This document shows positions 14,533 through 29,260 of a stretch of 64,000 nt of DNA, in pieces. A program made the position numbers and the translations under genes. A model generated the notes under the pieces. It was given only the letters and a program-made list of their open reading frames with translations. It did not search any database and was not told the DNA's origin. The number at the start of each line of letters is the position of its first letter. Within the stretch, counting starts at the first letter, position 1. The DNA comes from Candidatus Baltobacteraceae bacterium (lineage in GTDB: Bacteria > Vulcanimicrobiota > Vulcanimicrobiia > Vulcanimicrobiales > Vulcanimicrobiaceae), in NCBI GenBank assembly GCA_036489885.1, contig DASXEW010000001.1, forward strand, positions 744,001 through 808,000, in the 5' to 3' direction.

Positions 14533-15243
14533 CTAAGCACCGCCGAGATAAGCGGCCGTGACGTCCGCGCGCTCGAGTAGCTCCTTTCCGGTGCCTTCGA
14601 GCACGACGTTCCCGCGTTCGAGAACGTAAGCCCGGTCTGCGAGAGCGAGCGCAGCGCGCGCGTTTTGTTCGACCAGCAAGATCGAAGCGCCGCGAGCGCG
14701 TTCCTCACGAATGATCGCGAAGATCTCAGCGACGAGTTTCGGAGCGAGTCCCATCGACGGCTCGTCGAGCAACAGAGCTAAGGGACGCGCTACGAGCGCG
14801 CGTGCGATTGCGAGCATTTGTTGCTCGCCGCCCGAGAGTGAGCCCGACGGAAGATGACGGCGCGTGCCCAAGATCGGAAAGCGTGCGAACATCGCGTCGA
14901 TGTCGGTGCGGATTTCGGAGTCTCGCCGAATTCCGGCGGCAATCTGCAAATTCTCTTCGACCGTCAAGTGCGCGAGCATCCGCCGGCCTTCCGGTACGTG
15001 GGCCAAGCCGCGCCTTACGATTGCGTGCGGGCTCATCGTGGTCACATCCTTGCCGGCGAATCGCACGCTGCCCCCGCGCTTGGGGACGATCGACGAGATC
15101 GTACGCAAGAGCGTCGTCTTGCCTGCGCCGTTTGCGCCGACGATCGCGCAAAGCGTTCCTTGCTCGAGCGCGAGCGAGACGCCATGCAAGATTTCGATTT
15201 TACCGTAGCCGGCGACGACGCGTTCGACTTCGAGCAGCGCCAT
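14533..15243 (-). CDS. livF: Branched-chain amino-acid-type ABC transporter ATPase LivF
   Basis: 236 residues. Walker A GANGAGKTTL, ABC signature LSGGEQQMLAIARAL, Walker B LALLLDEPSMGLAP and the H-loop-equivalent LLVEQNA are all present. The length and LAHVPEGRRMLAHLTVEENL place it in the LivF group. It is the last gene of livJHMGF and shares one base with livG at its start. The ligand of the system is uncertain because Liv-type importers also carry urea, amides and organic acids. Confidence 0.93.
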   Translation of the reverse strand: MALLEVERVVAGYGKIEILHGVSLALEQGTLCAIVGANGAGKTTLLRTISSIVPKRGGSVRFAGKDVTTMSPHAIVRRGLAHVPEGRRMLAHLTVEENLQIAAGIRRDSEIRTDIDAMFARFPILGTRRHLPSGSLSGGEQQMLAIARALVARPLALLLDEPSMGLAPKLVAEIFAIIREERARGASILLVEQNARAALALADRAYVLERGNVVLEGTGKELLERADVTAAYLGGA

Positions 15244-15950
15244 CAGACTGCGGCTCCGAGATACGCTTCGATGACCGCGGGATCGCGCGCAACGTCAGCC
15301 GGCGTTCCCTCGGCGAGTACCGTGCCGAAATTCAGCACCGTGACGCGGTCGCAGACCCTGCGCACGAGACCGACATCGTGCTCGATGAGGAGCACGCCGA
15401 TGCCCTCATCTGCAATCGAGCGAACGAGTGACGCCAGCGCAAGCGTTTCGCTGGGATTCATTCCCGCCGCCGGTTCGTCGAGCATGAGAATTGCAGGCGC
15501 CGACGCGAGCGCTCGAGCGATCTCGAGTCTTCGTTGTTCGCCGTATGCAAGCGAGGATGCAATTGTGCGCAAGTCGACGTCGTGCATGCCGGCGCGCTCG
15601 CAGAGCGCGAGCATGGCGTTCGTATCGAGATCGCTGCGGCGGATTGCGCCCGCGCGCAAATTGTCCTCGACGTCGAGCGCAGCGAACAATCGGATGTTCT
15701 GATAGGTTCGCGCAATTCCGCAGCGTGCGATCCGATAGGGCGGCTTCCCGTCGAGGCGCACGTCGCCGAGCGTGATCGTGCCGCCGGCCAGCGAGACGAT
15801 GCCCGTAGTTGCGTTGACGAGCGTCGTCTTGCCGGCGCCGTTAGGTCCGATCAAGCCGACGACCGTGCCCGCTTCGATCCGCAGGCTTACGCCCGCAAGC
15901 GCGTCGACCCCGCCGAACCGGACGCGGACGCCCTCGAGCGCAAGCGCCAT
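15243..15950 (-). CDS. livG: Branched-chain amino-acid-type ABC transporter ATPase LivG
   Basis: 235 residues. Walker A GPNGAGKTTLVNA, signature LAYGEQRRLEIARALA, Walker B ILMLDEPAAGMNP and the H-loop VLLIEHDVGLV match LivG. It pairs with LivF as the cytoplasmic ATPase of the importer. The start and stop each share a base with neighbours, showing one translational unit with livM and livF. Confidence 0.93.
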   Translation of the reverse strand: MALALEGVRVRFGGVDALAGVSLRIEAGTVVGLIGPNGAGKTTLVNATTGIVSLAGGTITLGDVRLDGKPPYRIARCGIARTYQNIRLFAALDVEDNLRAGAIRRSDLDTNAMLALCERAGMHDVDLRTIASSLAYGEQRRLEIARALASAPAILMLDEPAAGMNPSETLALASLVRSIADEGIGVLLIEHDVGLVRRVCDRVTVLNFGTVLAEGTPADVARDPAVIEAYLGAAV

Positions 15951-16813
15951 TAGGCGTTTCCGATCTGCGCGGCCGGTTTCTTGCGCACGCTGCTCCAGAT
16001 CGCCGAGATTCCGCCCGGTGCGAAAACGATGACGAGCAAGAGGACGACGCCGCTAAGCACGTCGCGGAAATCTTGCAGAAAACGGAACGCCTCCGGCAAT
16101 ATCGTCATCACCGCCGCACCAAGAACCGCCCCAACCGGTGATGTGACGCCGCCGATCACACAGTACACGAGGATTTGTTCCATGCGACCGAACGCAAAGT
16201 CGGATGGCGTCAGAAAAAAATTCGTGAACGCGTACAGGATGCCGGCGCATCCCGCGATGGCGCCGGCGCACGCCAAGGTCACGACGCGCACGCGACCCGT
16301 GTCGACGCCGACGCCGGCTGCCGCAGATTCGTCTTCACGTGTAATGGCCTGCGCAAGCGCAAAACGCGAGTTACGTGCGGCATAGAGAATTACGCCGATT
16401 ACGATCAGCGTCGCGTAGATCCACTGAGTCGAGAGCAACGGCGGAATACCGTTCAGTCCGTCGCCGCCACCGGTGATTTGCAAATTGTACGCGACGATGC
16501 GGACGATCTCGCCGAACCCGATTGTCGCGATCGCGAGGTAAACGCCGCGCAACCGCTCTACGGGTAATGCAAGCAACGCGCCGACGAGCGCGGATGCGGC
16601 AATTGCTACGGGCGCAGCGAGGGCGAGCGGCCAGCCGAACGTGACCACCCCAATAGCACAGATGTAGCCGGCGATCCCCATGAATGCCGCTTGCGCGAGC
16701 GCGAGCTGTCCGGCGCGCAGGCAGACGGATAGCGAGAGCGCGAGAATCGCGTTGATGCCGATCTGATCGACGAGCGTGTGGTAGCGGGTGAAGAGCGCGA
16801 CGAGTTCGTGCAC
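15950..16813 (-). CDS. livM: Branched-chain amino-acid-type ABC transporter permease LivM
   Basis: 287 residues with eight or so hydrophobic segments. Family landmarks include LALSLSVCLRAGQLALAQAAFMGIAGY near the start, GVYLAIATIGFGEIVRIV mid-protein and SPVGAVLGAAVMTILPE near the end, the last being the EAA-like ATPase contact. It forms the membrane channel with LivH. The start directly follows the livH stop with no gap. Confidence 0.92.
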   Translation of the reverse strand: MHELVALFTRYHTLVDQIGINAILALSLSVCLRAGQLALAQAAFMGIAGYICAIGVVTFGWPLALAAPVAIAASALVGALLALPVERLRGVYLAIATIGFGEIVRIVAYNLQITGGGDGLNGIPPLLSTQWIYATLIVIGVILYAARNSRFALAQAITREDESAAAGVGVDTGRVRVVTLACAGAIAGCAGILYAFTNFFLTPSDFAFGRMEQILVYCVIGGVTSPVGAVLGAAVMTILPEAFRFLQDFRDVLSGVVLLLVIVFAPGGISAIWSSVRKKPAAQIGNA

Positions 16814-17689
16814 TTAGGCAGTACGGAGTGCGCGGCGGCCGAGGATACCCGCCGGTCGCGCAATCAAGATCACGAACATGACGCCGAAGGCGATCGCGTC
16901 GCGCCAACTCGACGAGATGAAGGCCACCGCGAGCGTCTCGGTGATGCCGAGGATGAATCCGCCGATCACGGCGCCGGTGATGCTGCCCATTCCGCCTAAA
17001 ATGATGACGGCCAGTCCCTTGAGTTCGATGCGGCCACCCATGTCGAAAACGACGCTATTATACTGAAGGCCGGCGAGAACGCCGGCGGCTCCCCCCAGCG
17101 CCGAGGCGATGAAGAACGTCAGGGCGATCGTCCGTTCGATGTCGATCCCGAGCAGGGCCGCGGCCATCCGGTCGTCGGCGACGGCGCGGATTTCCCGTCC
17201 GAGTTTCGTCGAACGCATGACGTACGCGAGTGCGATCATCAGCACGATTGATGCGCCGAGAATCGCGACGTCGAAAAACGTGAAGGTTACCGGCCCCAGT
17301 ACGATCGGCGATGCTTGCCGCACGAGCGAGGGAAATTGGTGATCGTTGACGCCGTAAATTCCGCGCGCAATGGCTTCCACGATAATCGCGAACCCGATAC
17401 TCGAGATCAGCGGCACGAGCGTCCCGGCGTTGCGGCGCCGCAGCGGCGCAAACGCGACGCGGTCGAGCACGATGCCGGCGAGTCCGGCCACCAAGATTGC
17501 GACGAGCATTCCCACGGCTAGGGGATAACCGGCTAGCACGACCGAGAGACAGACGAACGCTGCGAGCATGAAGATCGCGGCGTGCGCCAGATTCAGGATA
17601 TCGAGGACGCCGAAGACCAGAGCATAGCCTATAGCGAAGAGCGCGTAAGTTGCTCCGAGGAAGATTCCGTTGGCGAGCTGCTGTGTTAG
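16814..17689 (-). CDS. livH: Branched-chain amino-acid-type ABC transporter permease LivH; probable near-cognate start
   Basis: 291 residues if started at CTA 17689, which overlaps the livJ stop as CTAA and would give a leading TQQLANGIFLGATYALFAIGY, the usual LivH opening. The first ATG (17569) would remove this whole first membrane segment and leave only 251 residues. Between the upstream in-frame stop and 17569 there is no ATG, GTG or TTG. ATA at 17695 is another near-cognate choice. The rest is standard: LVFGVLDILNLAHAAIFML, and GMGSITGAVIGGFILGITE near the end. No good ribosome site is seen, so coupling to livJ termination is likely. Confidence 0.82.
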   Translation of the reverse strand, partial: LTQQLANGIFLGATYALFAIGYALVFGVLDILNLAHAAIFMLAAFVCLSVVLAGYPLAVGMLVAILVAGLAGIVLDRVAFAPLRRRNAGTLVPLISSIGFAIIVEAIARGIYGVNDHQFPSLVRQASPIVLGPVTFTFFDVAILGASIVLMIALAYVMRSTKLGREIRAVADDRMAAALLGIDIERTIALTFFIASALGGAAGVLAGLQYNSVVFDMGGRIELKGLAVIILGGMGSITGAVIGGFILGITETLAVAFISSSWRDAIAFGVMFVILIARPAGILGRRALRTA

Positions 17690-18789
17690 AAGTATGCGAA
17701 GCCGCCGGGTACGATCTTCAAGATCACCGGTGCGCTGCGAACGTCACGATTGCCGTCGAACGCGATCGGACCGAGAACCGTTTGCGAGATCTTCATATTG
17801 CGCAGACCATCGCACATCGCGCTCGGCGTCGATGCGCCCGAACGAACGAGCTGGGCAACGACCTGCGCAGCTGCGTACGATTGCGCTGCGAACTGATCGG
17901 GCAGCGAGCCGAACGCTTTCTTGTACCGGGCAACGAAAGCTTTGTTGCCGCTGTAGCTGTTGTCGATAAACCACGCTGCTCCGACGACCGCGCCGACGGC
18001 ACCCTGACCCGCCGCATCGACCATCTTCGTTGAGTTGAGGCCATTGCCACCGACCATGTGCACATGCAGGCCCAGCGTACCGGCTTGCGAGATGATCTTC
18101 GTGGCTTCATCGAAGAGCGCGCCGAGGACGAGCACATCGGGCTTTGCAGCTTTGATCTTCGTCAGTTGCGCTTGAAAGTCGACGTCCTTCGTGTGATAGG
18201 TCTCGACGTCGACGATATTGACGCCGCGCTTTTTCATTTCATCGGAGAACACGTTGAAGTCGGTCTTCGTGAACGCATTGTCGTCGCCGTAGATGATTGC
18301 GGCGGTTTTGTACTTCCAAGCCGCGTATGTCTTGGCGACGGTCGCGGGGACGACTTGCTCTTCGGAAAGCGCATCGCGGAACACGCAGGGACCTTGACGC
18401 GTGATGCCCGGGGCGGTGTTCGAAGTCGCCAGCACCGGAATGTTCGCGCGCACGGCGATCGGTTGCGCCTTGAAAGCCTCGGCCGAAAGCGTCGGACCCA
18501 GAACGATTACGCTGCCGTCGGTCGTGAAACGCTGGAACAGGTTTGCGGCTTGGTTCGGATCGGTCGCGTTATCACCGACATCGAAGGTCAACGTGCTGCC
18601 GCCGGTGTTGATGATCCCGGCTTTCATGTCGTCCATCGCAAGCAGGTATGCGTTCTTTTGCGAGACGCCGTAGACGGCCGCACCGCCGGAGACATCGGCG
18701 ACGACGCCGGCCTTTATGCTCTTGCCGGCTCCGAACGTGGGAGTAGCAACGAGAAGAAGTGCGCAGGTTAACGCGACTATTTTCAACAT
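17686..18789 (-). CDS. livJ: Periplasmic binding protein LivJ-like
   Basis: 367 residues with a signal peptide (MLKIVALTCALLLVATPTFGAG). Type-1 periplasmic binding fold: IKAGVVADVSGGAAVYGVSQ, VIVLGPTLSAEAFKAQPIA, AAIIYGDDNAFTKTDF, and PDQFAAQSYAAAQVVAQLV. First gene of livJHMGF, so it sets the substrate of the importer. Which ligand it binds (branched-chain amino acid, amide or organic acid) cannot be read from sequence. It lies 22 bp downstream of the beta-lactamase-like gene, so cotranscription with it is possible. Confidence 0.88.
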   Translation of the reverse strand: MLKIVALTCALLLVATPTFGAGKSIKAGVVADVSGGAAVYGVSQKNAYLLAMDDMKAGIINTGGSTLTFDVGDNATDPNQAANLFQRFTTDGSVIVLGPTLSAEAFKAQPIAVRANIPVLATSNTAPGITRQGPCVFRDALSEEQVVPATVAKTYAAWKYKTAAIIYGDDNAFTKTDFNVFSDEMKKRGVNIVDVETYHTKDVDFQAQLTKIKAAKPDVLVLGALFDEATKIISQAGTLGLHVHMVGGNGLNSTKMVDAAGQGAVGAVVGAAWFIDNSYSGNKAFVARYKKAFGSLPDQFAAQSYAAAQVVAQLVRSGASTPSAMCDGLRNMKISQTVLGPIAFDGNRDVRSAPVILKIVPGGFAYF

Positions 18790-24082: not shown

Positions 24083-25990
24083 TTTTGCGTAGCCGGCGGA
24101 GTGTAGCGCTAAACCGATCTCGTTCAAGATTATAGGATCGTCGATTGTAGCCGGCATGTTGTAGGGCTGGTCATCGGCGATCTTTTGAATGGTGGAACGT
24201 AGGATCTTTCCGGAGCGTGTCTTCGGCAAGCGCCCAACCACAATGGCGTGCTTGAATGCAGCGACCGGGCCGATGCGGTCGCGCACCATTTGCACGATCT
24301 CGCTCGTTATTGCGTCGTTCCCACGCCCGACGCCGGCTTTCAGCACGACGAATCCCAGCGGAATTTGACCTTTGAGCTCGTCGGCCACACCGACGACCGC
24401 ACATTCCGCGACGTCCGGATGCGAGGCGAGGACTTCTTCCATCGCGCCGGTTGAAAGACGATGTCCGGCGACGTTGATGACGTCGTCGACGCGCGTCATA
24501 ACGTACACGTAGTCGTCTTCATCGAGGTAGCCTGCGTCGCCGGTGCTGTAGTAACCGTCGAATGCCTCGAGGTACGCAGAACGAAAACGATCTTCGGCGT
24601 TCCAGAGCGTCGGCGACGAGCCGGGCGGCAATGGAAGCTTGCAACACAACGTACCTATCTCACCGGGTTTCACGTTGCGGCCTTCGGCGCCGAGCGCATG
24701 CACGTCCCAACCCGGCGCAGCTTTGGTCGGTGAGCCGGCTTTGATCGGCAGCATCTTACCGTCTGGTCCCTCGAGACCGACGTAGTTCGAGACGATGGCC
24801 GATCCGGTTTCCGTTTGCCACCAATGATCGATGACGGGGACGCGCAATTGTTCTTGCGCCCACGCGAGGGTCGGCGGATCGCAGCGTTCGCCTGCGAGAA
24901 ACAGCGTGCGAAATCCCGAAAGGTCGTAGCGTGCGATCAGCTCGCCGTCCGGATCTTCACGCTTGATGGCGCGGAATGCTGTCGGCGCCGTGAATAGTGC
25001 GCGCACGTTGTGCTCCGAAACGATGCGCCAGAATACGCCCGCATCCGGTGTTCCAACCGGCTTGCCCTCGAAGAGAATAGTCGTGCAGCCCGCAAGCAGC
25101 GGGCCGTATACGATGTACGAGTGCCCGACAACCCAGCCCACATCGGATGCGGTCCAGAACACATCCGGCGATTCCATGCCGTAGATCATTTTCATGGTGT
25201 TGTGCACGGCGACGGCGTGTCCGCCGTTGTCGCGCACGACACCCTTTGGCTGGCCGGTCGTGCCGCTCGTGTAGAGAATGTAGAGCGGATCCGTAGCGAG
25301 TACCGGCGTGCACGGAACCGGCTGCGCAGACGCCATTAGCGCGGCCCATTCTCGATCGCGTCCGGGAACAATGGCAGCTTCTAATTGCGGACGTTGCAGG
25401 ATAACGCACGCTGACGGCTTGTGGGAAGCGCGTTCGATTGCTTCGTCGAGCAGCGGCTTGTACGCGATCGTTCGCGCCGGCTCGATGCCGCAGGATGCCG
25501 ATACGACAACGGTTGGTTTGCAGTCGTCGATGCGCACGGCGAGCTCGCGCGGCGCGAACCCGCCGAAGACGACCGAGTGGACGGCACCGAGTCGCGCGCA
25601 CGCAAGCATCGCAATCGGCGCTTCGGGGACCATCGGCATGTAGAGAATGACGCGATCGCCGCGTTTCACGCCGAGCGCTGTGAGGACGCCGGCGAACCGC
25701 GCGACTTGGTCCAGCAGCTGATTGTACGTGTACTTGCGAATGGTCTGCGTGATCGGGCTATCGTAGATCAGCGCGACCTGCTCGCCACGGCCGTTTTCGA
25801 CGTGACGGTCGAGCGCGTTATAACACGTGTTTAGCTCGCCGCCGGAAAACCACCGGTAAAACGGCGGACGCGAGCGATCCAGCACGCGATCCCATTTTTT
25901 GAACCACGTAATTTGCTCGGCCACTTCACCCCAGTAGCCCTCGGGGTCGCGTAGCGATCGCGCGTGAACGCGATCGTACGTGGGATTCAG
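24068..25990 (-). CDS. prpE: Propionyl-CoA/acetyl-CoA synthetase, PrpE type; probable CTG start
   Basis: 640 residues from CTG 25990, which overlaps the pgl stop as CTGA and has AAAGGA 8 nt upstream. This start restores the acyl-CoA synthetase N-terminal segment YDRVHARSLRDPEGYWGEVAEQITW. The only later canonical choice, GTG 25924, would remove it. AMP-forming motifs: YTSGTTGQPKG, HWWQTETGS, STGDAGYLDEDDY and the catalytic Lys in PKTRSGKILRS. YRWFSGGELNTCYNALDRHVE is typical of PrpE. It activates propionate or acetate with ATP and CoA. It is the last gene of a pentose-phosphate operon, an unusual position. Confidence 0.88.
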   Translation of the reverse strand: MNPTYDRVHARSLRDPEGYWGEVAEQITWFKKWDRVLDRSRPPFYRWFSGGELNTCYNALDRHVENGRGEQVALIYDSPITQTIRKYTYNQLLDQVARFAGVLTALGVKRGDRVILYMPMVPEAPIAMLACARLGAVHSVVFGGFAPRELAVRIDDCKPTVVVSASCGIEPARTIAYKPLLDEAIERASHKPSACVILQRPQLEAAIVPGRDREWAALMASAQPVPCTPVLATDPLYILYTSGTTGQPKGVVRDNGGHAVAVHNTMKMIYGMESPDVFWTASDVGWVVGHSYIVYGPLLAGCTTILFEGKPVGTPDAGVFWRIVSEHNVRALFTAPTAFRAIKREDPDGELIARYDLSGFRTLFLAGERCDPPTLAWAQEQLRVPVIDHWWQTETGSAIVSNYVGLEGPDGKMLPIKAGSPTKAAPGWDVHALGAEGRNVKPGEIGTLCCKLPLPPGSSPTLWNAEDRFRSAYLEAFDGYYSTGDAGYLDEDDYVYVMTRVDDVINVAGHRLSTGAMEEVLASHPDVAECAVVGVADELKGQIPLGFVVLKAGVGRGNDAITSEIVQMVRDRIGPVAAFKHAIVVGRLPKTRSGKILRSTIQKIADDQPYNMPATIDDPIILNEIGLALHSAGYAKTLTV

Positions 25991-26715
25991 GGCGAGAGTC
26001 CTTTGGTCGCCGCGCGATCGACGAGCCAGGTCAGTGTGCCGTGTTCCGGATTCAAGACCTGCGCGGGATAGAGATCGGGATTGCGAGCACCCGCCAAGAC
26101 TTCCGCAAGCGCGGCCGCCTTGGCATCGCCGCCGGTCACAAGGACGATCGCGCGTGCGGCATTGATGGCGCGCGGCGTAAGCGTGATGCGATTCGTCGAC
26201 AGCTTCTCGATGTACGTCGTCACGACCCAGCGTTGCGCATCGAATTGCGAGAACACGCCGGGAAAAAGCGAGGCAGTGTGTCCTTCCGGCCCCATCCCGA
26301 GGTAAACAAGATCGAGCACGGGCGTCTGGCCCAGCTCTTTGAGCAAGATTGCCTGATACTCGAGCGCGGCTTCTTCGGGCGCCGCTTCACCGCGCATGCG
26401 ATGAACATTCTTCGCATCGATGCCGAGCGGATCGAACAAATTCTTCTTGGCCATGCCGTAGTTCGAATCCGGATTATCCGGCGACACGCAGCGTTCGTCG
26501 CCGAAGAAGAAGCGAACCGAGCCCCAGTCAACGCGCGAGCGAAGTGGTTCGGCTGCAAGCAAGGTAAACATAGCCTTGGGTGTCGAGCCGCCGGCGAGCG
26601 CGACGGTGAACGAGCCGCGTGCGGCGGTTGCATCGCGAGCCGCTAAAATGAAACGCTCGGCGCTCGAATTTGCGAGGGCGCCTTCGTCCGCGACGATTTC
26701 GAGTTTGCCGATTAT
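25987..26715 (-). CDS. pgl: 6-phosphogluconolactonase; probable near-cognate start
   Basis: 242 residues if begun at ATA 26715, which overlaps the opcA stop as ATAA with GGAG 10 nt upstream (ATC 26712 is next). The first canonical codon (ATG 26571) lies 48 codons later and would delete the sugar-phosphate motif VALAGGSTPKAMF. There is no ATG, GTG or TTG between. Downstream landmarks are WGSVRFFFGDERCVSPDNPDSNYGMAKKNL and YLGMGPEGHTASLFPG, both diagnostic for DevB/Pgl. It hydrolyses 6-phosphogluconolactone after Zwf. The usual family length is about 240, supporting the long form. Confidence 0.88.
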   Translation of the reverse strand: MIGKLEIVADEGALANSSAERFILAARDATAARGSFTVALAGGSTPKAMFTLLAAEPLRSRVDWGSVRFFFGDERCVSPDNPDSNYGMAKKNLFDPLGIDAKNVHRMRGEAAPEEAALEYQAILLKELGQTPVLDLVYLGMGPEGHTASLFPGVFSQFDAQRWVVTTYIEKLSTNRITLTPRAINAARAIVLVTGGDAKAAALAEVLAGARNPDLYPAQVLNPEHGTLTWLVDRAATKGLSP

Positions 26716-27704
26716 TTGAGGAGTTCTCCGACCGTCTGCAGCGCTTCCACGAAGATTTCATCCGTACGATCGCCGAGAATGGCGCGTTCGACGAGCGAGG
26801 TGTTATCGATGGCTTGAAGCGGCACGTGCCGCTTGGCGCGTGCGAATCGTCCGGTCACTTCGAGGGCGAGCGTTTCGCCTTCGACGCGCGCCGCGTATGC
26901 CGAGGTCCCGGTTTCAAGCCGAACGCTCTGGACACGGCGAATGTCGCCCTCGCGCTTGCGTTCGAATGAGATGACGGAGCCGCGCCCGTCGACGAAGGTC
27001 GATTTGTCGCGCACGATCCAGCCGAGCCGGCTCGCGAGCCAGCCGCCGAGATACAGCATTTCCGAATCGGAGCCGGCGCTAATCGCGATTCTGCGAATCG
27101 CGGAAAGCTCGTCGCGCATCGACGGATCATCGAAGAATTGCGCGATTACGTCGCGCCACGGATCGAGCCGCATCCAAGCCAAGTCACCCAACGCGACGGC
27201 TTGCTTTCCGGCAAAAAAACTCGAGAATTCCCGCAGCGCATTCGGTTCGGTGTCGGTCCCGGACGAATCCAAGATCACATGTTCGACGACCTCGAGCAAG
27301 CCCGCGAACGTCTCGCTCGAGAAGAGACGATCGGCTGCCCACCACAGGACGCATTGAATGTCTTTGACGAGCAGCGCTTCGACGAATTGCACGCGCTGCG
27401 CAGCGCGAATCCCGTCGACACCGAGCTCGACGCCTTCCCGGAAGATCCGAGGTGCATCTTCATGATGCGGCTCTTGCGCCTTGATCTTCGTACCGTGGTG
27501 TCCCTTGATCCCGTCCAGAACGATCATACGTGATGGATGTTTGTCGGCAATTCGCCAGGCGCGTTCGGTGACCCACTCGCGATAGCGTTCGTTCTCGACG
27601 TAGACGACGAGATTCATCGTCGCCGTCGACGGCGTACCGCCGCGTGCCTCGCGCCACTCGAGACGAATCGCTTCGGTGTCGAACGCCGGCGCCGACGTGG
27701 TCAG
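26712..27704 (-). CDS. opcA: Glucose-6-phosphate dehydrogenase assembly protein OpcA; probable CTG start
   Basis: 330 residues from CTG 27704, overlapping the zwf stop as CTGA, with GGAGG 5 nt upstream. The resulting N-terminus (TTSAPAFDTEAIRLEWREARGGTPSTAT) leads into MNLVVYVENERYREWV; the first ATG (27617) would start inside this conserved strand. OpcA-like features include RMIVLDGIKGH, VQFVEALLVKDIQCVLWWAADRLFSSETF and AWMRLDPWRDVIAQFFD. In cyanobacteria and actinobacteria OpcA activates G6PDH by redox-dependent binding. Its position directly after zwf fits. Confidence 0.85.
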   Translation of the reverse strand: MTTSAPAFDTEAIRLEWREARGGTPSTATMNLVVYVENERYREWVTERAWRIADKHPSRMIVLDGIKGHHGTKIKAQEPHHEDAPRIFREGVELGVDGIRAAQRVQFVEALLVKDIQCVLWWAADRLFSSETFAGLLEVVEHVILDSSGTDTEPNALREFSSFFAGKQAVALGDLAWMRLDPWRDVIAQFFDDPSMRDELSAIRRIAISAGSDSEMLYLGGWLASRLGWIVRDKSTFVDGRGSVISFERKREGDIRRVQSVRLETGTSAYAARVEGETLALEVTGRFARAKRHVPLQAIDNTSLVERAILGDRTDEIFVEALQTVGELLK

Positions 27705-29260
27705 ATACGCCTCCAGCCGTCGTCTTCGTCAAAGAGCGCATCGGATGAGACTGGACCTTGGCTTCCGGCAGCGTAGTTGGGGAAGCTCGTGTCTTTGAGC
27801 ATTTGCCAACGATCCAAAATCGGCGTGACCGCTTCCCATGCGGCCTCGACTGCGTCCCAGCGGGTGAACAGCGTTGCGTCGCCGCGCATTGCATCGCCGA
27901 TCAAACGCTCGTACGCGGGTGCGGAGACGACGCCGAATCCCGTGCCATAGTTGAAATCCATCGAGACCGAACGGATGTGCATCTTCGGCCCGGGAACTTT
28001 CGCTGAGAATCGAATCGAGACGCCTTCTTCGGGTTGAATCTTCATTACGAGTGCATCGTGCTCGATGTCGTCGCTGCTTTCACCGAAGAGCCGGTGCGGA
28101 ATGTCTTTGAAACGGATGGCGATCTCGCTGATCTTGCTCGCGAGGCGCTTGCCGCTCCGAAGATAAAACGGAACGCCGGCCCATCGCCAGTTGTCGACAT
28201 AGAGTTTGACGGCCGCATACGTCTCGACGTTCGATTTCGGATTGACGTCGGGTTCGTTGCGGTAGCCCGGGACTTCTTGACCGTTGATCGTCCCTGCCGC
28301 GTATTGGCCGCGCGCCGCGAAATGAACGAGCTGATCGGGATCGATCGGCCGCAGCGCGCGCAGCACTTTCATCTTTTCATCGCGGATCGAGTCGGCGTCG
28401 GCCGCCACCGGCGGTTCCATACCGACCAGTGCGAAGAGATTGATGACGTGATTTTGGATCATGTCGCGTAGCGCGCCGGAGGTTTCGTAATAACCGCCGC
28501 GATGTTCGACGCCGACGGTTTCGGCGGCGGTAATCTGCACGGATTCTATGTAGCGGCGATCCCAAATCGGCTCGAACATGACGTTCGCAAAGCGCAGTGC
28601 CATGATGTCTTGTACGGGCTCTTTGCCGAGATAGTGATCGATCCGATAGACGTGCTTCTCGTCGAATACCTTGGTGATCTCGGCTTGCAGCGCGCGCGCC
28701 GAAGTGAGATCAATTCCAAAAGGTTTCTCAACGATGATCCTCGTCCAGCCCTTGGGATTGTCACGAGGGCCGAGTCCGGCCTCATCGAGCATGTCGACGA
28801 TCTTGGTGAAGAGGCCAGGCGGCGTCGAGAGATAGAAGAGACGGTTGTTCTCGGTTCCGAGCTCCGTATCGTTGCGTTCGAGCGCGGCGCGCAGCTTCTT
28901 GTAGCACTTCGGATCGTCGAAGTCGCCGCTCACGTAAGAGACGTGCTTCGCGAAATCGCTCCAGAGCGGATCCTTGGCTGCGCCGCTGCGCGAAAACTCG
29001 TCGATGCTGGTCTTCATTTCAGCCCGGAAGCCGTCGTCGTCCCATTCCGTCCGTGAAAATCCGACGATACCGTACTTCACCGGCAGCACGTCGCCGAGCC
29101 GCAGGTTGTACATTGCCGGCATCAACATGCGCTTCATCAGGTCGCCGCTGGCGCCGAAGAAGATGACGTTGCACGGGTCCTTGATGCGATTTGTCGACAA
29201 TCCCGCGCGTAGCGGGTTGCCATCGCTCGAACTCTTGGGCCGCAGAACCGTTTGTGCCAT
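27701..29260 (-). CDS. zwf: Glucose-6-phosphate 1-dehydrogenase
   Basis: 519 residues. NADP-binding N-terminus (NVIFFGASGDLMKRMLMPAMYNL), catalytic region RIDHYLGKEPVQDIMALRFAN with the active-site His/Lys, and the substrate-binding PFYLRSGKRL. It oxidises glucose 6-phosphate to the lactone, making NADPH, and is followed by opcA and pgl, which complete the step. ATG shares one base with the gnd stop (TAATG). Confidence 0.96.
   Translation of the reverse strand: MAQTVLRPKSSSDGNPLRAGLSTNRIKDPCNVIFFGASGDLMKRMLMPAMYNLRLGDVLPVKYGIVGFSRTEWDDDGFRAEMKTSIDEFSRSGAAKDPLWSDFAKHVSYVSGDFDDPKCYKKLRAALERNDTELGTENNRLFYLSTPPGLFTKIVDMLDEAGLGPRDNPKGWTRIIVEKPFGIDLTSARALQAEITKVFDEKHVYRIDHYLGKEPVQDIMALRFANVMFEPIWDRRYIESVQITAAETVGVEHRGGYYETSGALRDMIQNHVINLFALVGMEPPVAADADSIRDEKMKVLRALRPIDPDQLVHFAARGQYAAGTINGQEVPGYRNEPDVNPKSNVETYAAVKLYVDNWRWAGVPFYLRSGKRLASKISEIAIRFKDIPHRLFGESSDDIEHDALVMKIQPEEGVSIRFSAKVPGPKMHIRSVSMDFNYGTGFGVVSAPAYERLIGDAMRGDATLFTRWDAVEAAWEAVTPILDRWQMLKDTSFPNYAAGSQGPVSSDALFDEDDGWRRI

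Follow-up and report, generated by a model that had tools for sequence, protein, structure and literature searches.

A livH gene lacking a canonical start codon, and a candidate restart codon over the livJ stop, in a member of the Vulcanimicrobiaceae

The livH gene found in the window (the whole stretch of 64,000 nucleotides analysed here) has no ATG, GTG or TTG upstream of its conserved N-terminal region and very probably requires some non-canonical start codon. On balance, and with limited confidence, we favour its translation by termination-reinitiation, with a restart at CTA 17689, the codon overlapping the livJ stop. The most likely candidate start is thus CTA 17689, ATA 17695 coming second.

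Organization of the livJ/livH junction

The features of the operon, all on the minus strand, are the following.

17686-18789, minus strand: livJ, periplasmic binding protein (Pfam Peripla_BP_6)
16814-17689, minus strand: livH, with a putative start at CTA 17689; LivH and BPD_transp_2 models, selection on the N-terminal segment
17693-17695, minus strand: ATA, second candidate livH start, two codons before CTA, which would add two codons; read directly, conserved in the diverged contig L039
17686-17689, minus strand: CTAA, candidate livH CTA over the livJ TAA stop, in a four-nucleotide layout; read directly, conserved in L039
17570-17683, minus strand: the 38 pre-ATG codons of livH, first membrane helix; dS 1.52 and dN 0.012 against L039
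17567-17569, minus strand: first ATG of the livH frame, rejected as start, the pre-ATG segment being under selection
15950-16813, minus strand: livM, second permease, GTG start (Pfam BPD_transp_2)
15243-15950, minus strand: livG-like ATPase (Pfam ABC_tran and BCA_ABC_TP_C)
14533-15243, minus strand: livF-like ATPase (Pfam ABC_tran), livF being assigned by position

As read from the sequence, livJ (18789 to 17686, TAA stop) is followed by livH, the frame of which, reading LTQQLANGIFLGATYALFAIGYALVFGVLDILNLAHAAIFM, opens after a TGA located 21 codons before its first glutamine and reaches its stop at 16814. The livH codons are offset one base ahead of the livJ stop, the junction reading CGC ATA CTT CTA ACA CAG CAG in the livH frame, with 2 nt between the livJ stop and the two glutamine codons (QQ). 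The original prediction held that the N-terminal segment of LivH is encoded before ATG 17569, that no ATG, GTG or TTG occurs back to the upstream in-frame stop, that CTA 17689 forms a CTAA overlap with the livJ stop and that ATA 17695 offers a second option. Reading of the frame agrees on all of these points: the first ATG, GTG or TTG after the in-frame TGA is ATG 17569, at codon +38, the CTAA lies at 17689-17686 and the ATA at 17695-17693. The 38 codons 5' of ATG 17569 correspond to the first membrane helix, and the model matches likewise extend across them. The LivH model NF008011 is matched over its positions 8-303 from residue 19 of the stop-to-stop ORF (175 bits, below the curated cut-off of 379 bits) and PF02653 (BPD_transp_2) over its positions 2-269 from residue 23, the first canonical start codon being residue 59. 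Coverage of the profile from its N-terminus, together with an operon including a binding protein, a second permease and two ATPases, identifies the product as a LivH permease.

The absence of canonical codons is unremarkable by itself, since about 5.4% of the internal codons of the source genome are ATG, GTG or TTG and 2767 of 20364 internal 38-codon stretches are devoid of them (400-kb sample C1 of this genome). The meaning of the missing start rests on the conserved LivH N-terminus encoded there.

The junction in relatives

The closest named relatives of the source genome are metagenome assemblies of Candidatus Eremiobacterota. A survey of livJ/livH junctions in relatives, which the original prediction had called for, placed an ATG, GTG or TTG at precisely three codons from the conserved QQ, on its 5' side, in 25 of 26 orthologues, the exception (L023) having TTG five codons before it. 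These 26 are the orthologues with a readable junction (20/21 of L010-L030 and 5/5 of L059-L063 having the start at three codons), the more distant livH paralogues L031-L038 being left out of the count. The start-less layout is shared by L039, a second, diverged contig of 3667 bp which appears to be JAFAHZ010000088.1 (L070), with the same livJ/livH arrangement and no canonical livH start. The livJ stop and QQ are separated by 15 nt including an ATG in the same-genus sequence (L010, L040) versus 2 nt in the window and L039; the window junction is 13 nt shorter than that of the same-genus relative, leaving the CTAA overlap. A deletion in the common ancestor of the source genome and the L039 lineage may thus have removed the livH start.

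Comparison of the window with L039 over the 38 pre-ATG codons gives 19.0 synonymous changes over 29.2 sites and 1.0 non-synonymous change over 84.8 sites (Nei-Gojobori, as for the dS and dN listed above). This preponderance of synonymous changes indicates that the segment is translated: selection has kept acting on the encoded protein in two lineages that both go without a canonical start. Such selection is strong evidence against initiation at ATG 17569 as well as against an assembly error.

Pentose-phosphate junctions in the same window

Two further junctions of the window, zwf/opcA (CTGA) and opcA/pgl (ATAA), display the same four-nucleotide layout as livJ/livH.

27701-29260, minus strand: zwf, glucose-6-phosphate dehydrogenase (PF00479, PF02781)
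27701-27704, minus strand: CTGA, putative CTG start of opcA over the zwf stop; GGAGG at 27714-27710; relatives compared
26712-27704, minus strand: opcA, without ATG, GTG or TTG before ATG 27617 (TIGR00534, PF10128, PF20171; relatives)
26712-26715, minus strand: ATAA, putative ATA start of pgl over the opcA stop; read directly
25987-26715, minus strand: pgl, 6-phosphogluconolactonase, next canonical codon 48 codons after ATA (TIGR01198, PF01182)

At aligned positions 5 and 9, where relatives of opcA often have GTG and ATG respectively, the opcA of the window has CTG both times; the second of these sits in the CTGA shared with zwf, five bases after GGAGG, with a Shine-Dalgarno match of -9.5 kcal/mol. 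The Pfam profile of pgl begins at residue 10.

pth and the preceding L25 gene across the family

The strongest support for the proposed restart on NTA codons at overlaps comes from pth. We examined 33 family loci, or 32 distinct ones after merging an identical pair (L314-L343, L361-L363), the upstream gene encoding L25 (PF01386 and PF14693, checked for L319). In 21 of the 32, belonging to 18 genera, the whole stretch between the in-frame stop and the conserved GLGNPG is free of ATG, GTG and TTG. The overlap with the L25 stop is exactly 4 nt in 21/32 loci, the two genes being in frame in 10/32 and in another phase in 1/32; these counts, as well as the binomial p of 1e-5 for the phase, ignore shared ancestry. 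The exact overlaps comprise ATAG (8), GTAG (5), GTAA (2), ATAA (2), GTGA (2), CTAG (1) and ATGA (1), NTAA/NTAG thus accounting for 18 of 21. Between the overlap codon and GLGNPG the distance ranges from 5 to 16 codons, and the changes in length of the N-terminus stay in frame with that codon, as a start there predicts. For example, L319 and L320 read GTA and then KLVAGLGNPG, and in L323 and L329 an in-frame stop immediately precedes ATA. Among the in-frame loci, CTG or ATC often directly follows the stop. Outside the family, 4/11 loci from other families of the same order and class (L344-L354) lack a canonical codon within 20 codons, and in other classes of the phylum all six loci (L355-L360) have ATG, GTG or TTG before GLGNP.

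CTT was also considered as a start, since in livH and yfcH it is found at the place homologous to the start, and in pth two residues ahead of LIVGLGNPG; it was set aside, the four-nucleotide overlap being judged the better account.

Start-less junctions and genes in the genome

The sample of the source genome contains 14 start-less junctions with coding DNA right after, 10 of them at the four-nucleotide phase (ATAG four, CTGA three, ATAA, CTAA and CTAG one each). The control, Sinorhizobium pSymB, contains three, all at this phase (two CTGA and one GTAG, the latter in an AsmA-like gene apparently split between two ORFs). Eight were found in genome G008, three of them CTGA at the four-nucleotide phase, and no NTAA/NTAG start-less junction occurred in its 400-kb sample. 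The close gene pairs of the source genome show a clear phase preference for TGA stops (157/28/5 for four-nucleotide, other and in-frame phases) and almost none for TAA (33/31/27) or TAG (40/33/33). The NTAA/NTAG layout is a minority in this genome, which counts against a restart at CTA.

To count as start-less, a gene had to have its first canonical codon 10 or more residues past the beginning of its Pfam profile, a threshold set after the candidates had been seen. It applies to 9 of 705 called genes of the source genome versus 3 of 631 of pSymB, two of these three being transposase pieces (Fisher p = 0.15, or 0.02 with transposases set aside); with G008 added to the source genome, the figures become 13/1062, p = 0.19 and 0.02. 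The enrichment over the pSymB control is not firm. The flagged ORFs put through HMMs were 9 of the C1 sample plus opcA and livH, and 10 of the C3 sample, for the source genome, with 9 of G008 and 20 of pSymB for comparison; pgl, missed by the gene caller, stands outside the nine. The underlying coding-potential scan was noisy, many flagged ORFs being shadow or broken frames, and an all-against-all BLAST of the samples was dropped, being swamped by Arg-rich shadow ORFs. The lipB, yfcH, opcA and infC loci were collected by tblastn or a looser motif, the first anchors having missed many.

The other start-less genes of the source genome, by Pfam, are a second livH, lipB, yfcH, an MFS transporter, a GH1 protein, an SDR, an acyl-CoA dehydrogenase and pth. 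The usual start of lipB relatives aligns to ATC in the source genome, and in 2 of 29 other lipB loci (L183 of G001 and L202 of G030) the 12 codons that precede the aligned part include no canonical one; the G001 locus carries AAG where others carry ATG or GTG. The second livH-type gene (L076:10491-11363, plus strand) has no ATG, GTG or TTG and comes right after the upstream stop (CAC GTC ATT CAG), suggesting ATT as its likely start; it (C1:70491) had no match in the other 97 of the 98 genomes searched (E 1e-70). The GH1 glycosidase ORF (L081:3390-5522, plus strand) seemingly holds an SBP_bac_3 domain within it and offers no canonical start until residue 96.

Some flagged ORFs are of separate interest. 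In a GntR/UTRA regulator of pSymB (L114:9403-10188, plus strand), the DNA-binding domain is encoded before any canonical codon occurs. A DsbA-like ORF (L079:16920-17471, minus strand) begins directly after an in-frame TGA and continues with PYC where CPYC is expected; it possibly carries selenocysteine. SelD proteins often carry Cys or Sec near a given place, and a SelD-like ORF with AIR synthase domains (L301:3176-4150, plus strand) begins after a stop near that place, making it another possible selenoprotein.

Initiation machinery

Non-canonical starts of infC are of a known, autoregulated kind in other bacteria. Among the infC loci of the family (L214-L243), the aligned start is ATA in 29 of 30 and ATC in one, so that, from this conservation, ATA is very likely a working start codon in the family; the Shine-Dalgarno match of infC in the source genome is -11.4 kcal/mol. 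The IF3 gene is present. Among 46 distinct tRNAs, one combines the usual initiator anticodon stem with CAU, the screen for this stem being too loose to exclude further initiators. An altered anti-Shine-Dalgarno was ruled out, the 16S tail being ordinary.

Alternative explanations

That the missing start of the window is an error of sequencing or assembly, a view to which the assembly of the genome in four contigs might lend some weight, is hardly credible: the independent contig L039 repeats the junction despite a divergence of about 1.5 synonymous changes per site in this segment, and the CTGA of opcA and the ATAA of pgl repeat the four-nucleotide layout elsewhere in the window. The view of the original prediction that the pattern is no local sequence error is thereby upheld. 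We give equally little credit to a start at ATG 17569, yielding a LivH without its first membrane helix, or to a decaying livH. This ATG is the first canonical codon and an ATG at its place is common among orthologues, but a single non-synonymous change against 19 synonymous ones in the 38 codons before it speaks against both versions, as does the intact state of livJ, livM and the two ATPase genes. A programmed frameshift fusing LivJ and LivH into one protein is very improbable as well. The livH frame is indeed open for 21 codons upstream of QQ, overlapping livJ, but inspection by eye found no XXXYYYZ slippery heptamer at the junction common to the window and L039, livJ and livH are separate genes, each with its own start, in 25 of 26 orthologues, and the gene upstream of pth lies in the four-nucleotide phase, in frame or in another phase, so that no single shift would serve.

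An unlikely but more serious alternative is a livH start at ATA 17695, within the 3' end of livJ, reached by ordinary initiation or through coupling and possibly under restraint by IF3, as for infC elsewhere. ATA is a better near-cognate codon than CTA, is the infC start in 29/30 family loci, and would also fit the acyl-CoA dehydrogenase and pgl cases. It is conserved in both start-less lineages, where the same-genus relative with ATG has GTA, and the alanine codon creating it was free to vary, only 31% of the shared livJ alanine codons being identical. ATA, CTT and CTA are all present in both lineages, and the last six livJ codons, identical between the window and L039, differ at 4/6 from the same-genus sequence with ATG; the chance of such an identity is nevertheless about 0.04 (per-amino-acid rates), and other six-codon identical runs exist in livJ. 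No convincing Shine-Dalgarno precedes ATA 17695, unlike in infC. Furthermore, the unusual start in pth is the overlap codon, the equivalent of which in livH is CTA. It is because of the pth overlaps that CTA is preferred here over ATA, the codon to which infC points.

Proposed restart at CTA 17689

Under the favoured restart at CTA 17689, the ribosome would end livJ at TAA, stay on the mRNA and start again one base back on CTA, within CTAA, with the initiator tRNA. Full-length LivH would be made and its translation thereby coupled to that of livJ. With a Shine-Dalgarno match of -5.0 kcal/mol, at the 25% quantile of random 22-mers, livH does not stand out from chance, in keeping with such a coupling. 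CTA is a poor start codon, and the further CTA cases are only two, a CTAG in L302 and another in L332. The weak codon pairing would probably keep the yield of LivH below that of LivJ, which would suit a transporter requiring more binding protein than permease.

A broader reading, which we regard as tentative, is that the start rule at junctions has been relaxed class-wide from NTG to NTR, with restart after TAA or TAG on ATA, GTA or CTA and with NTAA/NTAG functioning like NTGA elsewhere. The relaxation could stem from a modified wobble base of the initiator tRNA or from a reinitiation in which codons are only weakly checked. If so, the coupled genes that standard annotation truncates would form a set including livH, pgl and pth; across a whole bacterial group, pth and a series of metabolic genes would begin at codons that gene finders disallow, and the public proteins of this group would consequently be truncated or missing at their N-termini. 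A restart at a stop codon could then do without an NTG start, and codon checking by the reinitiating ribosome, an old question, would become directly testable.

Comparison with known systems

Non-AUG starts and NTGA overlaps are already known, and NTA starts within NTAA/NTAG overlaps look new: no description of them appeared among the matches listed for non-canonical starts, for coupling and overlap, and for initiation in Eremiobacterota, subscription journals lying mostly outside this search. Start-codon switches are rare in a survey of 61,358 ancestral AUG starts, with two to CUG and one to AUU (PMC5622118), although surveys of this kind depend on annotation. PMC11445065, according to its abstract, concerns GTG starts.

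The infC of the family resembles livH in its non-canonical codon and in belonging to the same class of organisms, and differs by its good Shine-Dalgarno match in the source genome. AUA and AUU starts have been described for infC, ccpN and cvfC1 of Staphylococcus aureus, the AUA start reaching in vivo about 10% of AUG in poor medium (PMC13009471); unlike livH, these genes have extended Shine-Dalgarno motifs and, in the available part of that paper, are not described as stop-codon overlaps. The sigR gene of Streptomyces, with a GTC start repressed by IF3, shares with livH, as now proposed, a non-canonical start in an operon that lowers one product relative to its partner, and misannotation by gene finders. 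Conversely, sigR is a first gene with a strong ribosome site and proven IF3 control (PMC5472188).

The closest parallel in working would be the NTGA pairs, for which termination-reinitiation at -4 nt overlaps has been described (PMC6728339, PMC12548453). In these pairs, as proposed for livH, the start overlaps the upstream stop by 4 nt and a restart by the terminating ribosome is put forward; for livH this overlap holds if CTA is the start and fails if it is ATA. NTGA pairs combine an NTG start with a TGA stop, whereas the livH type would combine an NTA codon with a TAA or TAG stop, through a coupling that we infer. With its CTAA, livH lacks the NTG start in an NTGA overlap that defines these pairs, and opcA has it in its CTGA; livH may thus work like an NTGA pair without being one.
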